A DNA stretch of 64,000 nt from Oscillatoriales cyanobacterium (lineage in GTDB: Bacteria; Cyanobacteriota; Cyanobacteriia; CACIAM-69d): contig RDXB01000041.1 of assembly GCA_004292515.1 (NCBI GenBank), positions 1 to 64,000 on the forward strand, given 5' to 3'. The position numbers were made by a program, and so were the translations under genes. The notes beneath the pieces are model-generated. The model did not search any database and was not told the origin of the DNA. It saw only the letters and a program-made list of their open reading frames with translations. Of this stretch, positions 11,607-59,641 are shown in pieces; the stretch's first letter is position 1; every line of letters begins with the position of its first letter.

Positions 11607-11703
11607 GCATGGCGATGCGCCTTCCGATACGCAAGATCTTCGAGGGTCACTTCATGACAACCAATCAATCCTGACGGAGGGCGTACCGCTGTACGCCCCT
11701 ACG
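11607..11703 (+). repeat. GCGTACCGCTGTACGCCCCTACG element, left copy (inverted relative to 15022)
   Basis: GCATGGCGATGCGC...GAGGGTC...CGGAGGGCGTACCGCTGTACGCCCC. Read backwards, the element at 15022-15107 has the same order of blocks. The two copies therefore flank the Roco gene as inverted repeats of about 90 bp. A further inverted pair (GGTGCAGGGGAG / CTCCCCTGCACC, about 11715-11778) lies between this copy and the Roco start. Confidence 0.75.
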
Positions 11704-11809: not shown

Positions 11810-14800
11810 ATGAGCCTCGAAGTCGCCCAACAACGAATTGCTGCTGCCTTGGCTGAGGGTGTAACCTCTTTGGATTTGAGCGAGCTGGGTCTCACCGAGT
11901 TGCCCGCCGAATTCTTTTCACTAACTAATCTGCAAACACTCTATCTCGATGGCAACCAACTAACGAGCATTCCCGAGTCGATCACCCAATTACAAAACCT
12001 GCATTCACTCTATCTCAACAGCAACCAACTAACGAGCATTCCTGAGTCGATTACCCAACTACAAAACCTGCAAACACTCAGTCTCGGCAACAACCAACTA
12101 ACGAGCATTCCCAAGTCGATCACCCAATTACAAAACCTATATTCACTCCATATTAAAAAAAATCAATTAAAAAATCTTCCTGAGTTATGCGATGGACTCA
12201 CATTACTTGATGCTTCCAATAACCTATTTACAGTTTTTCCTGATTCCATTACTTGTTTACATGGATTGGGAATGCTTCTTTTGCATAACAACAGCATTGA
12301 GGCTATACCTGCTTCAATTGTCCATCTGAGTAAAATGCTTTTTCTTTCAGTTGCCAATAATAAAATCAGAAAAATTCCTGATGAAGTATCTCGCATAAAA
12401 AATCTCAGAGTGCTTGTTCTTGGCGGCAATAAATTAGTAGAAATTCCTGAATCCTTCGCCGGTCTGAAGAATTTAAGATCGCTAGATCTTATTCAAAATC
12501 AAATAACAACTATTCCTGACTGGATTGATCAATTAACCAAATTGAAGGAAGAGCCAGAAAGCTGGGATCTAAAATGTCCAAGTCTTGATTTACGAGGCAA
12601 TCAGATTCGAGAGATTCCGTTAACATTAGTCCCTTTTTTGAAAGACGTTTATAACGTTGCCATTGATCAGAATCCCTACTCTGCCTATCCGCCCGAAATT
12701 GTTGAGCAGGGACAAGAAGCGCTATTTGACTATCTCGAAGAACGAATCGAAGGCTATGAACAAAAATGGGTCTCCAAGCTGTTAGTTGTAGGGCAAGGCG
12801 GCGCAGGCAAAACGGGCTTGTTAAATGCCCTGCGTGGCCAAGAGTTTGTGCCCACCGACACCACCCACGGCATGCAAATCGCCCCCTTGGAATTGCCCCA
12901 CCCCACCCGGGCCGACGTGACCATGACCCTCAGTGCTTGGGACTTTGGCGGCCAGGAAATTTATCACGCCACCCACCAATTTTTCATGAGCGAGCGATCG
13001 CTCTTTATCGTCGTCTGGAACGCCCGAGCCGGCCATGAAGAAGGCAAACTCGACTATTGGCTGAACACGATCACCACCCTCGCCCCCAGCGCCCCGATCG
13101 TCCTCGTCGCCAGCCACATTGATCAACATGTCGCCGCCTTTCCCGATCGCGCCTTCCGGGAAAAATACCCCCAAATCAAGGCGATCGCCAACGTCAGCAA
13201 CCGCACCAACGAAGGCATCGCCGAACTACGCACCACCCTCGCCCAGCTCGCCGCCGACCTGCCCCTGATGGGCGAAATTTGGCCCGCCACTTGGTTGCGC
13301 GCCGCCGACAGCCTGGCCGCACTGCCCGACCCCTACATCGGCCCCAAAGCGTTCTATCGCCACCTGGCCGCCGCCGGAGTCGCCGAAGCCAGCCGCCCCG
13401 TGTTGGCCCGCTGGCTGCACGAACTGGGGCAAATTTTGTTCTTCCAAGACCGGCCCGCCAGCGCCGAACTGGACTTAAGTGACCTGGTGATTTTGCAACC
13501 CGACTGGGCCAGCCAAACCATCAGCCGCGTGATTGACGATCGAGAAGTCGAAGAAAAACGCGGCATCTTCACCCACTGCTGCATGGAGCGGTTGTGGTGC
13601 GACCTCGATCGCCACGTGTGCGACCACCTGTTGCGGCTGATGGAACGGTTCGACCTGTCCTATCGCCTGACCGCCGACCCCAACAACGACCTGTCCTTGG
13701 TGGTGGAGCGCGTCCCCCACAACCCGCCGCCCTACGAAACCGAGTGGGACGCGCTAGCCCAAGGGCCGCAAGTGGCCCTGCGCTATGCCCTCAACTTTGT
13801 GCCGCCGGGCATTCCGACTTGGTTCATTGCCCGCCAATCGCGGTTCAGCATCGATCGCCACTGGCGCTACGGGGCCCTGTTTGCCTACGACGATGGCGGC
13901 GTGCGTCACTTGGCCCTGTTGGATTTGCCCCTCGGCGAGCGATCGCTGCGGCTGACCGTGCGCGGCCCCCATCCCCAGAATTTTTGCACCCTGCTGCACG
14001 ATGGCATTACGCAACTGTTGGCGGAGCGGTTTCCAGGCTTGCAGGTCACGCCCAAGGTGCTTTGTCCGGGCCACAATGACCAGCCCTGCACCCACGAATT
14101 CGACTATCAGCAGTTGCAAACCCGCAAAAAATCGCTGATCGAATGCCCGATTTCCGAAGAAGATTTGGACGTCAATCAATTGCTTTATGGAATCGATCGC
14201 CGCACCGAACCGCAGGTATTGCAACGGATTGAATCGCTCACCGAAACGGTGCTGAAAAACCAAGCCGAAACGCGATCAGAACTGCAATCCTTGTGTGAGC
14301 AAACCAGTCGGGAATTCACCAAACAGTTCGCCGCCGACCAAAGCAAAGTCGATCGCTCTTGCCCCACCATTTTCACCATTCAGCCCCTAGCCGGAGGCAG
14401 CCGCTTTAGCAGTTTGAAACAGGCAGTTTTGGGCCAAAAACTGGAATTGCAACTCTACTGCGAACATCCCGCCTGTTGCCATCCCGTCGAACAGTGCCGC
14501 TACGAACTCACCGATCCAGCCCGCTGGCTCAAGAGCTTTGGCCCCCACCTCAACACCTTGGTGAAGCTGCTGAAGGTGGTGGCTCCCCTGGCTGGCCCCA
14601 CCGCTGGGCTAACCACGGCGATCGACAACGAACGCTGGAAAGCCGGTCTGGAATTCACCAAAGAGCTGGCCGGGCAGTTGCCGCACCTGTCGATCGCCGA
14701 TCTTGACCCTGACTTGACCGAGGGCGATCGCGCCAAGTTCGATCGCTTTGTGGAGGAACCGATCGCCACCCCCGATCGCCAACTCTGGGCCCTGCGCCAA

Positions 14801-15001
14801 TTCCTGAAAGACCAAGAACCCGACTTCGAGCGATCGGGCCTAGGCAAAGGGGAACTGCAACTAGTTCGCACCCCGGAATATCACTACCTGTGGCTTTGTC
14901 CCGAACACCGCAAACCCTACCAGGGCCGCGAAATCTATCCCCACGCAACCTTTAACCCCTTTTCATTGGATGAAGACAGCGAACGGGCGATCGGTCTGTA
15001 G
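11810..15001 (+). CDS. Roco family protein (LRR-Roc GTPase-COR)
   Basis: 1063 residues from the ATG at 11810 (GGTGAG upstream; a longer frame from 11711 reads through repeat sequence). Residues about 15-300 are leucine-rich repeats of 23 residues (LxxLxLxxNQLTSIPESITQ). The Roc GTPase follows: P-loop GQGGAGKT at about 328, DFGGQE at about 377, and a G4-like SHID near 434. A COR domain covers about 480-760. The C-terminal region has clustered Cys/His (CPGHNDQPCTH; CEHPACCHPVEQC) and a coiled coil. Cyanobacterial Roco proteins are cytoplasmic signalling scaffolds; the target is unknown. Bases about 12140-12780 are clearly AT-richer than the rest and lack HIP1 sites, suggesting the LRR block was exchanged. 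Confidence 0.92.
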   Translation: MSLEVAQQRIAAALAEGVTSLDLSELGLTELPAEFFSLTNLQTLYLDGNQLTSIPESITQLQNLHSLYLNSNQLTSIPESITQLQNLQTLSLGNNQLTSIPKSITQLQNLYSLHIKKNQLKNLPELCDGLTLLDASNNLFTVFPDSITCLHGLGMLLLHNNSIEAIPASIVHLSKMLFLSVANNKIRKIPDEVSRIKNLRVLVLGGNKLVEIPESFAGLKNLRSLDLIQNQITTIPDWIDQLTKLKEEPESWDLKCPSLDLRGNQIREIPLTLVPFLKDVYNVAIDQNPYSAYPPEIVEQGQEALFDYLEERIEGYEQKWVSKLLVVGQGGAGKTGLLNALRGQEFVPTDTTHGMQIAPLELPHPTRADVTMTLSAWDFGGQEIYHATHQFFMSERSLFIVVWNARAGHEEGKLDYWLNTITTLAPSAPIVLVASHIDQHVAAFPDRAFREKYPQIKAIANVSNRTNEGIAELRTTLAQLAADLPLMGEIWPATWLRAADSLAALPDPYIGPKAFYRHLAAAGVAEASRPVLARWLHELGQILFFQDRPASAELDLSDLVILQPDWASQTISRVIDDREVEEKRGIFTHCCMERLWCDLDRHVCDHLLRLMERFDLSYRLTADPNNDLSLVVERVPHNPPPYETEWDALAQGPQVALRYALNFVPPGIPTWFIARQSRFSIDRHWRYGALFAYDDGGVRHLALLDLPLGERSLRLTVRGPHPQNFCTLLHDGITQLLAERFPGLQVTPKVLCPGHNDQPCTHEFDYQQLQTRKKSLIECPISEEDLDVNQLLYGIDRRTEPQVLQRIESLTETVLKNQAETRSELQSLCEQTSREFTKQFAADQSKVDRSCPTIFTIQPLAGGSRFSSLKQAVLGQKLELQLYCEHPACCHPVEQCRYELTDPARWLKSFGPHLNTLVKLLKVVAPLAGPTAGLTTAIDNERWKAGLEFTKELAGQLPHLSIADLDPDLTEGDRAKFDRFVEEPIATPDRQLWALRQFLKDQEPDFERSGLGKGELQLVRTPEYHYLWLCPEHRKPYQGREIYPHATFNPFSLDEDSERAIGL
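11928..12146 (+). repeat. Near-identical 69-bp tandem units in the LRR region
   Basis: Three consecutive 69-bp units, each encoding one 23-residue LRR, are almost identical in DNA (CAACCAACTAACGAGCATTCC recurs at 11953, 12022 and 12091). Such identity invites unequal recombination and copy-number change. Confidence 0.85.
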
Positions 15002-15021: not shown

Positions 15022-15107
15022 CGTAGGGGCGTACCGCTGTACGCCCTCCGCCAGGGTCTCAGGGAGATCTCGCTTATCGGAGGGCGCATGGCGATGCGCC
15101 CCTACGG
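15022..15107 (-). repeat. GTAGGGGCGTACCGCTGTACGCCC element, right copy
   Basis: CGTAGGGGCGTACCGCTGTACG...AGATCTCGCTTATCGGAGGG, then CGCATGGCGATGCGCCCCTACGG. Each end is itself an inverted repeat. The right end contains the TAG stop codon of queC (15102-15104), and the left end lies 21 bp past the Roco stop, so the element sits between two convergent genes. Confidence 0.75.
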
Positions 15108-17735: not shown

Positions 17736-17908
17736 AACCAAAGGCTCCCACAACGAACTCAAAGAACTAAAAAAATCCGGGTGCGATCGCTCGATCGTCC
17801 CCGGCTAATTCTTCTAGGGGAGCCAGCCCAGTCAGGACACTGTGATGGGATGGCTAGTTTGTATGGGAACGATAAGCAAATTGAGTTCTGGCACTCACCT
17901 CCCAAAAC

Positions 17909-18409
17909 TTAGTCTGGCGAAGGGTAGTAAGGTGTATATTCCTGCTGTGTGTATCGCAGCGTTGAATTACCGAGGCGATAAGTCCAGGATTTAAATTCAG
18001 TTTCGCCAGCAGTATCACACTCATGGTGAGTGCCAAGAAAATTAGACTCATAGGCTCTGCGAGAGCCATTACGATCGATAACTCCATCACCGTCAAAGTT
18101 CATGTAAATAATGAGATTGCGAGAGCATCGAAGAGCTAGATTAAAGAAATTTCCTTGGAAGTCGATTCCTGCATTGGAACTTATATCCAGCCAACATCTG
18201 TATTGACGACCATCATTGGTTTCTACAATATGAGTTTTTCGAGACTGATCACGATTCATCATCCACTCTTCAGACGCTGGACAAGCTAGTGCTTGTGTAA
18301 GCTGGAGACTGAGCAGTCCGGTAGATAATAAGGTTTTAAAAATTAATGAGTGAATGTTCCATGTACAGTTGGCAAGAAAAATATTCATAGTTTTATTACA
18401 GATCTCCAT
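17909..18409 (-). CDS. AT-rich secreted hypothetical protein
   Basis: Up to 166 residues. Either Met1 or Met8 (18388) may start it; GGAGA lies 13 bases before Met8. A hydrophobic segment (SLIFKTLLSTGLLSLQLTQA) ending ALA-C is a signal peptide. The mature domain contains four cysteines (CPASEEW, YRCWLD, LRCSRN, HECDTAG), probably two disulfides, and an EF-hand-like FDGDGVIDRNG stretch. The gene is visibly AT-richer than its neighbours and lacks HIP1 sites, which suggests recent arrival. No family recognised. Confidence 0.6.
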   Translation of the reverse strand: MEICNKTMNIFLANCTWNIHSLIFKTLLSTGLLSLQLTQALACPASEEWMMNRDQSRKTHIVETNDGRQYRCWLDISSNAGIDFQGNFFNLALRCSRNLIIYMNFDGDGVIDRNGSRRAYESNFLGTHHECDTAGETEFKSWTYRLGNSTLRYTQQEYTPYYPSPD

Positions 18410-18547
18410 CGATCAAATGGTTGGCGTGGATGTCAAATTGCTCTTTAAGAGGCATCTCGTCCTAGTCGGATATTCACCAAGTCTATTAAGGATTTTTTGA
18501 ACCTGGGAACGATCAACTGCCCAAATCCTTGCTCTAGAGTCCGCTAG

Positions 18548-18575
18548 GGAACAAGGGGCTTCAGCCCCTTGTCTC
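18548..18575. repeat. Palindromic element, copy C (core only, 18552-18571)
   Basis: CAAGGGGCTTCAGCCCCTTG, one base off the consensus palindrome. It lies about 20 bp behind the serS stop codon, where it can fold into an eight-pair hairpin in the serS transcript. Confidence 0.7.
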
Positions 18576-56585: not shown

Positions 56586-57481
56586 TAGACCTCAGTTTTC
56601 ACAAAATCAGATCAGCAATTGGCCATCACCTGCTCATCGCCTCATCGCGATCAATCATGAAACTGCAGACCGGTGGTGAGCGATGTTGTTCTCAGTCCGC
56701 AGTGAAATGGGCAGTCAAATTGCCGTTGCTCAACTTGGAACTGATCATCCGGGCCGGGTGATGACTGAGATGCATGATCAATGCACTAGAACCGATTTCA
56801 TATGCAAGTTAGTTCAGACTTCACTAGCATCTTTTGGGGTCAAATCCACAGTGCGATCGCCCAAAACCCTTAAGCAATTAGGGCAATTAAGTCAGTGTAA
56901 TGAATTTCGTGCAATTATACATTTGTGCCAAGCTAATGTGTCAATCCAATGTGTCAATTTAATGTGTCAATCCAAGTGAGTTCATCGCTCTGCTGAACAC
57001 CTGCTGAACAAGTCTGTAAAGGTCTTGCTGGCAAGGTCGAGGATGAGCCAAGCTATCCTTACCAAAGAGTTTCTGAAGAAACACGCCAAAACAATGCGAA
57101 ATTAGTGTGAGATTCACCTAAGCATTGTCATCACTGATTAGCACAATTTAGTGTGATAACTGATGCGCGAAACTATAAACCATGTTCAATAGACTGTGTC
57201 CAATAGACTATGTTCAAAAGAGGTTGATTTGAGAACGGTTACGCAAAGATAAAGGACTTAAACGGCTTGTTTTGACAATTAAATATCGAACATCAACCAC
57301 TACAGATTGATTTCAGCAAATGACGATGCTCCCTCAATTTTGTCCCTTTAAAACCGCCATTGACCTTGCCGCTGAATTGGACGAATCTGCTGCCGGCTGT
57401 AGTTAGTTTTATGTGAAGATGGCAATCATTGTTTCGATTTCTTGCAAGTGATTCATGCATGAGTAGGTTGGCAATTGAAAT

Positions 57482-59641
57482 ATGGATTTTCATGCAGATG
57501 CAATGCAGTCCCTCTTGCGTAAGATGCCAGGACTGGCCTACCAACTTTTGTGGGAACCTAGTGGAAAAATATCATTTCCGCTAGTCAGTGAAAGCTGTCA
57601 AAAACTTTTTGGCATCTCATCGTCAGAAATTGTAGATGATGGCAATTCGCTGCTAACCAAAATTCACCAGGACGATCGCGCTGCATTTGAGCAATCGATC
57701 GCCAATGCGGCTCGCCAATTATCCGGCTGGGCTTGGCAGGGCCGCTTCCAAACCAATGATGGCGAACAGTGGTTCCATGCGGCTTCCGAGCCAGAACAGT
57801 TGCCGGGGGGTGCTGTGTTGTGGCACGGCATGATGATTGAAATTACCTCGTTGAAGCAGTCTGAGGTGCGACTCAAGCGATCGCGCAAAACCGTGCAAAT
57901 GGAGCGGATGCGCTATCGGTATGCCCTAGATAGCACCAGTGAAGCGGTGGCACTACTGGATGAATACGGCAATCACATCTATCAAAATGCTGCTTTTGCT
58001 AGACTCTTTCAGGTGCAAAATCTGCGATCGCTAGAGACGATCGGGGGTATTAAAGCGCTGTATCCCAGTTTTGATACTTATCAGTTAATTTACAGCACAA
58101 TCCAAACTGATCGGTCTTGGTCTGGCGAAGTAGAAATGCGGTCTGCAAAGGGAAATACCCTAACAATTTTTCTGCGTGCCAGCCCAATCTATAACGCAGG
58201 TGGTGAGTACATTGGCTGCGTCAGTTTGTTCTCAGACATTACGCTCAAGCGACAAATTGAGCGCGAGCGACGGCAATTGGCAGCTTTGGTGGAAAACAGC
58301 CCGAACCTGATTGCAATTACCAGCCTAGACGGCAAAGTTTCTTACATCAACAGTGCTGGCTTAGTTCTCTTGGGGTTGGCATCAATTTCCGAAGTTGAAA
58401 ACCATTTGCTGTTAGATTTCTTTGCCGTTGAAGACCGCCCGATCGCTGAGGGACTAATTCACCCCATTGCGCTGCGGGATGGCACTTGGAGCGGTGCATT
58501 TCGGGTTTGGAATCAACAGAAATGCATGGCAGTTCCTGTGGACTACACTGTGTTTGTCATTCGCCATCCCCAAAGTAGCGAGCCTTTATGCTTGGGAATT
58601 ATTGCACGGGATGCCAGCGATCGCGAGTCTGTAGAATGGGCTTTGCGCGAGTCAGAAATGCGTCTACGTCAGCAAACCAAAGACTTAGAAAAAGCCCTCT
58701 TGAACCTGCAACAAACTCAATCACATCTAGTTCAGCAAGAAAAAATGTCGAGCTTGGGGCAATTAGTGGCGGGTGTGGCCCATGAAATTAATAACCCCGT
58801 TAATTTTATCTACGGCAACCTTGACCATGCCTATCGCTACTCGATCGACCTGTTGAGCCTAGTGCAGACTTGTCATGAGTATTTTGATCTAGAAGCTGTG
58901 CCGGCCTTGGCTGATCAACTGGCAGAAATGGATTTTGAATATGTTAGTCAAGATTTACCCAATCTGTTTGGCTCGATGAAAATGGGTGTCGATCGCATTA
59001 AGGCGATCGTTAAATCCCTCAGAACTTTTTCTCGAATGGATGAATCTGATGTCAAGGAAGTAAACTTGCACGACAATCTAGAAAGCACACTAACCATATT
59101 GAATCATCGGCTCAAAGGCGATAATAACTGTCCATCTGTGGAAGTGCTTCGTCAATATAATGCTCACAGCATGGTGGAATGTTATCCAGGGCAGCTCAAT
59201 CAAGTTTTTATTAATCTATTAGCGAACTCTCTGGATGCGCTAGAAGATCGGGCTGTTGGTAGCGAAAACTTCAAGCCTCAGATTAGTATCATGACGCGAT
59301 CGACCCTAGATGGTAGCAGTGTTCAAATTGCTATTGCCGATAATGGCCCAGGAATTCCTGAAGGTATTCGCGCTCGATTATTTGACCCATTTTTCACCAC
59401 TAAAGCAGTCGGTCGGGGTACAGGTCTAGGCTTATCAATTAGTTATCAGGTGGTGACTGAGCGCCATGGTGGGCGGCTGTGGTGCGAGTCCCAAGAAGGG
59501 GAAGGGACGATTTTTACAATCGAAATTCCAACGCAACAGTTGTCTCGATTGTCCTGTGCAGTTGACGGGCAATCGCGAGTTGATTCCTCGCAAAAACTGT
59601 CCCAAAACACTGAGCAAAATACTTCGGTGACGGAATATTAA
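57482..59641 (+). CDS. Multi-PAS orphan sensor histidine kinase
   Basis: 719 residues, soluble. Three PAS-type domains: about 10-125 ([15 protein letters not shown]...), about 145-260 ([20 protein letters not shown]) and about 270-390 ([20 protein letters not shown]). A coiled coil then leads to the H-box [19 protein letters not shown] with the phospho-accepting His434. The N-box is [12 protein letters not shown], then ADNGPGIP and [16 protein letters not shown]. It is the same kinase class as the broken gene at 1-1276 and serves as the template for its missing parts. No regulator gene is adjacent. The signal sensed is unknown; no haem- or flavin-binding residues could be assigned by eye. Confidence 0.9.

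Follow-up and report, generated by a model that had tools for sequence, protein, structure and literature searches.

The window (the whole 64,000-nucleotide stretch of contig RDXB01000041.1 that was analysed) contains a Roco gene whose features are collected in Table 1. Its ORF is uninterrupted, and the LRR units are not split into separate shuffled exons. In the encoded protein the Roc domain is followed directly by COR, with all three Pfam matches above the cut-off (PF08477 79 bits, PF16095 97 bits and PF25497 75 bits) and E-values of 1e-30 for LRR_8, 4e-22 for Roc, 1e-27 for COR-A and 7e-21 for COR-B. With its N-terminal LRR, for which an AF2 model predicts eleven LRR strands, the protein belongs with the prokaryotic Roco group, and a kinase domain is absent from the 12 Pfam families listed for it. 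By sequence, the best PDB relatives of the Roc-COR portion are the Roco of Chlorobium tepidum (CtRoco; 6hlu and 8r4b), for which the match spans residues 259-760, and LRRK2, the Parkinson's disease protein. The C-terminal extension is 31-36% identical to eight relatives and has no match in Pfam or the PDB and none over the cut-off in NCBIfam, and AF2 confidence is low at residues 797-1063. The window protein matched none of 5027 PADLOC defence models, and no TIR domain was found in it with either Pfam or PADLOC.

Table 1. Features of the window Roco gene, with positions in the window
Feature	Position	Strand	Detail
Roco gene, LRR-Roc-COR-A/B with C-terminal extension	11810-15001	+	ORF, 1063 aa, ATG start
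LRR N-terminal cap, MSLEVAQQRIAAALAEGVTSLDLSELGLTELP...	11810-11929	+	GC3 0.53; similar to relatives' N-caps (MNQAELLERIKQAARTKQSVLDLS)
Three 69-bp LRR units in tandem	11930-12136	+	GC3 0.57; 84-90% identical
Compositional change point, left	12125		Gain 16.7
AT-rich diverged LRR block and LRR-Roc linker	12137-12772	+	GC3 0.29; without CGATCG
Compositional change point, right, LRR-Roc junction	12767		Gain 52.7
Roc GTPase domain	12776-13123	+	Pfam PF08477; P-loop GQGGAGKT, DFGGQ
COR-A, residues 492-626	13283-13687	+	Pfam PF16095
COR-B, residues 654-793	13769-14188	+	Pfam PF25497
C-terminal extension, conserved in the subfamily	14189-14998	+	LQLYC..P..HP, PxxGP; alignment A3

Compositional seams in the LRR region

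The tandem LRR units start at 11930, 11999 and 12068, and whilst all three are present as first described, their pairwise DNA identities of 88.4, 89.9 and 84.1% make the term "almost identical" used in the initial annotation slightly strong. The fourth unit, which starts at 12137, is 46-55% identical to the first three. These first three look like the product of a recent tandem expansion, and to that extent the earlier suggestion of an expanded recognition domain holds.

Sliding-window GC and codon analysis confirmed that composition is not uniform along the gene. The block that follows the tandem units has a GC content of 0.366 and a GC3 of 0.292 over 212 codons, compared with 0.600 and 0.729 for 12773-15001, and the GC3 of this Roc-COR-C half is the same as that of five neighbouring genes (0.71-0.73). 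All five of the lowest-GC 600-bp windows in the 64 kb start at 11951-12151; other AT-rich stretches are present at about 56700-57700 and 17850-18550, with a GC content of about 0.40-0.42. The AT-rich stretch originally placed at about 12140 to 12780, and its abrupt switch to GC-rich sequence near the P-loop, are both borne out by likelihood change points. The one on the right sits 2 codons upstream of the start of the Roc match (two-unit support from -4 to +27 codons) and its gain in log units compares with a maximum of 9.4 among 500 codon shuffles, whilst none of the 500 shuffles reached the gain of the left change point (at most 7.6). From the amino-acid usage of the block one would expect a GC3 of 0.69, compared with the 0.28 observed, and so amino-acid usage is not the cause of the seam.

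The block had also been described as free of HIP1 sites. The HIP1 octamer, a cyanobacterial mark whose density in the window (106 in 64 kb) marks the host as a cyanobacterium, is indeed missing, but only around one would be expected per 636 bp. Its core, CGATCG, is a more telling marker: with 402 copies in 64 kb the block should have around four, and it has none. From 11735 there is a stretch of 1259 bp with no CGATCG, and just one such gap in the window is larger. In the AF2 model, made with six sequences, a single unbroken solenoid runs across the left seam, with block pLDDT values of 71-95 over residues 1-300, and on this prediction the LRR join would yield a plausible protein.

We compared these values with those of 106 cyanobacterial Roco genes, 104 of which have at least three LRR motifs. 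Across the 104 LRR-bearing genes, the GC3 of the LRR correlates poorly with that of the gene's own Roc-COR-C, with an r of 0.33, whilst the two halves of Roc-COR-C correlate with each other with an r of 0.80. The LRR of the window gene deviates by -0.42; set against the remaining LRR-bearing genes this is 2.5 standard deviations off their mean, and just one of the 106 genes (L153, -0.43) exceeds it. The four Rocos of the same genus that were kept in the set (L009, L020, L021 and L022) deviate by -0.08 to +0.01, and so the seam is not a property of Rocos across the genus. Of 46 strong change points, 15 fall no more than 30 codons from where Roc starts, compared with 6% if they were placed uniformly. 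Fifteen of the 45 listed strong change points fall 391-450 codons past that start, close to where COR-B ends, indicating that composition breaks are not limited to the LRR junction and that the C-terminal part is often compositionally distinct; it may be that the C-terminal module has been exchanged too.

AT-richness by itself is no proof of import, and is a weaker sign of it than the initial annotation assumed, since in 24 of 27 other genes the diverged LRR array has a higher AT content than the Roc it is joined to. The deviation of such arrays averages -0.06 where host GC3 is low, -0.08 where it is intermediate and -0.24 where it is high, and if they had come from a random donor pool one would expect equal positive and negative deviations in AT-rich hosts, which is not the pattern found. 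Homogenised arrays have an average deviation of -0.001 (n=50), and across arrays self-similarity and GC3 deviation are correlated (Spearman 0.63).

LRR replacement in related Roco genes

The proposal that the LRR was exchanged while the GTPase stayed can be seen directly in other cyanobacterial Rocos, and in the window gene it is the composition that points to it. Our strict test set comprised 78 pairs whose Roc-COR regions are at least 80% identical, drawn from 51 genes and not independent of one another. In 23 of these pairs (21 genes) less than 20% of the LRR core can be aligned at the DNA level, and in the other 55 at least 20% still can, whilst in every one of the 78 pairs the alignment covers 90% or more of the first 400 codons of Roc-COR. 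For comparison, 150 unrelated LRR pairs gave a median coverage of 0 and a 90th percentile of 0.70, the latter reflecting the fact that homogenised arrays resemble one another. Some of the pairs with unlike LRR cores occupy the same locus with conserved flanks. L174 and L189, for example, have 85% DNA identity across 3.5 kb of 5' flank and the start of the gene, no similarity between their LRR blocks (1.4 and 0.8 kb), and 84% identity once more, starting 68 bp ahead of the Roc match. The same pattern is seen in L153 and L161, with both flanks alike. The LRR block of L174 was not found in any of 25 further genomes from the same genus, and the source pool is therefore unseen. In seven of the 15 pairs inspected the sequences become similar again 8-68 bp ahead of the Roc match, and in the other eight they do so at +114 bp (L153/L173), at -119 or -126 bp, or far upstream. 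The seam of the window gene sits where those of its relatives lie.

In eight pairs of this kind (L040/L190, L161/L167, L153/L173, L153/L161, L152/L169, L152/L174, L169/L174 and L174/L189), codon agreement at residues shared within a pair is 0.25-0.40 in the LRR compared with 0.67-0.76 in Roc; for L152/L169 the values are 0.39 and 0.75, and unrelated LRRs have a mean of 0.36. LRR agreement at the unrelated level argues against fast change in place, which would have kept agreement at the level of Roc. Broader counts of pairs at the unrelated level, by LRR codon agreement (54 of 78) or LRR identity (49 of 78), were rejected as too liberal; a shifted register can lower codon agreement, as in L046/L047, where the DNA is alignable throughout and yet agreement falls in the unrelated range.

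The reverse arrangement also occurs. L014 has its N-terminus and LRR in common with L145, L130, L056 and L124 (codon agreement 0.73-0.87), whereas in Roc its identity to them is just 46-48%. When unrelated Rocs are anchored on the P-loop, they have about 60% DNA identity over 18 codons, which suggests the P-loop region as a candidate recombination site, although we give this little weight because anchoring without gaps biases the comparison towards the sequence around the anchor.

Variation among repeats and C-terminal domains of relatives

For 445 adjacent LRR unit pairs from 82 cyanobacterial Roco genes, with units chosen by a motif, replacement changes per unit pair amount to 0.49-0.61 at positions 3, 5, 7 and 8 of LxxLxLxxN, compared with 0.11-0.21 at the other free positions. 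The pooled dN/dS at these concave positions is 1.45 (bootstrap 1.12-1.92) versus 0.27 elsewhere, the latter value being lowered by the motif itself, which fixes positions 1, 4, 9 and 15 and nearly fixes 6, 11 and 14. The three tandem units of the window gene differ by replacements at six codon positions, five of which are LRR positions 2, 3, 5, 7 and 8.

The tails that follow COR in relatives match TIR_2 in 17 of 94 cases and CHAT in two. L174:3279-6893 and L189:4380-7367 encode HTH-LRR-Roc-COR-TIR proteins, in which the HTH falls under Pfam's cut-off, and their TIR domains match the PADLOC ThsB model at 3e-62 and 1e-61. The presence of TIR on these 17 tails points to immunity and cell suicide as an output in part of the family. 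The initial annotation had called the window protein a receptor under diversifying selection, a view that gains support from the concave-face replacements and from the TIR effector domains of relatives, with the ligand being putative.

Distribution, flanks and donor search

A Roco of some kind is present in 140 of 388 genomes of the class. Those with 41-51% identity to the window Roc-COR-C are found in 13 of the 388, all in other families and including neither of the two same-genus genomes nor any of the three same-family genomes, and the window gene is therefore patchy in its distribution. No ortholog of it was found in the two same-genus genomes, and the resident Roco paralog is 28% identical to it. 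glyS is kept in the same-genus genomes, with different downstream DNA and with queC elsewhere, such that glyS-queC synteny is absent there and no empty site could be demonstrated.

REP-like palindromes (GTAGGGGCG...CGCCC) lie on both sides of the Roco gene, at 11679-11702, 15023-15046 and 15082-15105. The 20-bp core of the first two has no other copy in the window within three mismatches, and a degenerate REP-like pattern has 34 matches in the organism's own genome, counting both strands.

No donor for the block was found in the 388 genomes of the class, where the best matches reached 43-50% over parts of it, nor any close one in named genome contigs, where 13 relatives stood at 23-33%, and none was found in plasmids, phages or viral contigs. 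A search of the organism's own genome for silent cassettes matched the window LRR to just the paralog on contig C33, at 45-56% identity. No close relative of the window gene that is AT-rich throughout was found among the 388 genomes.

Discussion

The window gene has a compositional seam, and among its relatives there are LRRs that have been replaced on a constant Roc. The best reading of these data is a modular receptor in which an exchangeable LRR sensor is carried on a constant GTP switch. Overall, we consider it probable, though well short of certain, that the window gene is such a modular LRR-Roc-COR receptor with an imported LRR block and tandem-amplified first repeats. The receptor would be intracellular, with the LRR horseshoe as its sensor and the Roc-COR GTPase behind it as the constant switch. 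The LRR from around 12125 to 12767 would have a history unlike that of the GTPase, having most likely been brought in whole by recombination between conserved edges, which may be the N-terminal cap or first repeats on one side and the LRR-Roc junction on the other. The first three repeats would then represent recent tandem amplification.

A possible mode of action can be drawn from CtRoco. In the available text of PMC11052575, CtRoco undergoes a GTP-driven dimer-to-monomer cycle in which the LRR-Roc linker is the hinge, and binding of a nanobody to the concave side of the LRR helps to shift it to the open GTP-bound monomer. On this working model, a ligand on the concave LRR face would swing the LRR about the LRR-Roc linker, the swing would favour the GTP-bound monomer, and the signal would pass to the C-terminal part; by analogy, binding and switching in the window protein may follow the same steps. 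We infer a swap in the window gene from its composition, and a donor, a ligand, an output and a role in defence are likewise putative.

The strongest competing explanation, which we regard as unlikely, is that the LRR was never imported and evolved in place through fast diversifying selection, tandem gain and loss, and drift towards AT-rich codons, with Roc held under codon selection. It would account for the excess of AT-rich diverged arrays in hosts of any composition, for the way in which array self-similarity tracks GC3 deviation, and for the 55 orthologous pairs in which the LRRs are partly alignable. It sits poorly with a shift in GC3 that takes place within a few codons at a domain border, even though synonymous sites on either side share mutation pressure and expression, and with the low codon agreement at unchanged residues in the eight pairs, for which Roc-like values would be expected. 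L014, whose LRR is joined to another Roc family, is also hard to accommodate. That join can be read in either direction, and it could be that an old AT-rich gene instead gained a host-like Roc-COR-C, which would be consistent with the absence of the window Roc-COR-C from the two same-genus genomes. Against this, the GC3 of the Roc-COR-C half equals that of its neighbours, and the subfamily lies in other families, so that this half is no copy of a resident host gene, the paralog being as distant as it is; we consider replacement of the GTPase half improbable. Still less probable is import of the whole gene from an AT-rich donor followed by uneven adaptation to host codon usage: the patchy subfamily and the loss of glyS/queC synteny in same-genus genomes would suit it, but uneven adaptation would not be expected to break off just a few codons from a domain border. 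Lastly, an artefact of LRR amino-acid composition is refuted: LRRs do contain many residues whose codons are AT-rich (Leu, Ile, Asn and Lys), and yet the amino-acid correction leaves the seam in place and homogenised arrays show next to no deviation. The data fit best with a mixed history in which the LRR was replaced and also changed faster under weaker codon selection.

Prokaryotic LRR-Roc-COR Rocos, for which CtRoco is the model, have the same domain order as the window gene, which differs from CtRoco in its mosaic LRR composition and its C-terminal extension. Thoeris ThsB-type TIR proteins, as represented in PADLOC, resemble the C-terminal TIR of L174 and L189, whereas the window gene is without TIR. 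Fungal NLRs have repeats that are near-identical in tandem, with few variable positions, and that are joined to an NTP switch, and in these respects they are like the Roco genes; they differ in that the NTPase is NACHT or NB-ARC and the repeats are mostly WD40, TPR or ANK, and replacement of diverged blocks is not known among them. Such fungal NLRs with high internal conservation repeats are covered in the available parts of PMC4986451 and PMC12222747.

Another close parallel is the brown-algal ROCO family, which in the available text of PMC11378527 (citing Zambounis 2012) has an LRR-ROC-COR architecture with 23-residue units and shuffled LRR exons. The same source places positive selection at sites 14, 16, 18 and 19 of the 23-residue unit, on the concave face, and the spacing of these sites is identical to that of the cyanobacterial positions 3, 5, 7 and 8. 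The means of variation differ: the algal genes have one LRR per exon and vary by exon shuffling, whereas the cyanobacterial genes are intronless and vary by whole-block replacement and tandem amplification. The portions of PMC6337361 and PMC11052575 available to us make no mention of LRR block exchange, and a search of the open-licence literature returned no paper that deals with bacterial LRR-Roc-COR-TIR proteins or with LRRs being exchanged in bacterial Rocos.

Taken together, we would tentatively put forward cyanobacterial Rocos as a bacterial variable-receptor system, a proposal that is quite possible but that we hold less firmly than our reading of the window gene. LRRs would be swapped by recombination at conserved edges onto a constant GTP switch, in some lineages with a TIR effector, followed by tandem amplification and diversifying selection at four concave residues, the same four as in brown-algal ROCO; this would be a bacterial, intronless counterpart of the algal variation. 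According to the accessible part of PMC6337361, very little is known about the function of bacterial Rocos, and the question could be put to the test in laboratory cyanobacteria by exchanging LRRs of natural alleles. Should the LRR prove to be an exchangeable sensor, the LRR-Roc hinge of CtRoco would also be an evolutionary cut site, and the job of the Roco would be to recognise a changing target, as immune receptors do.
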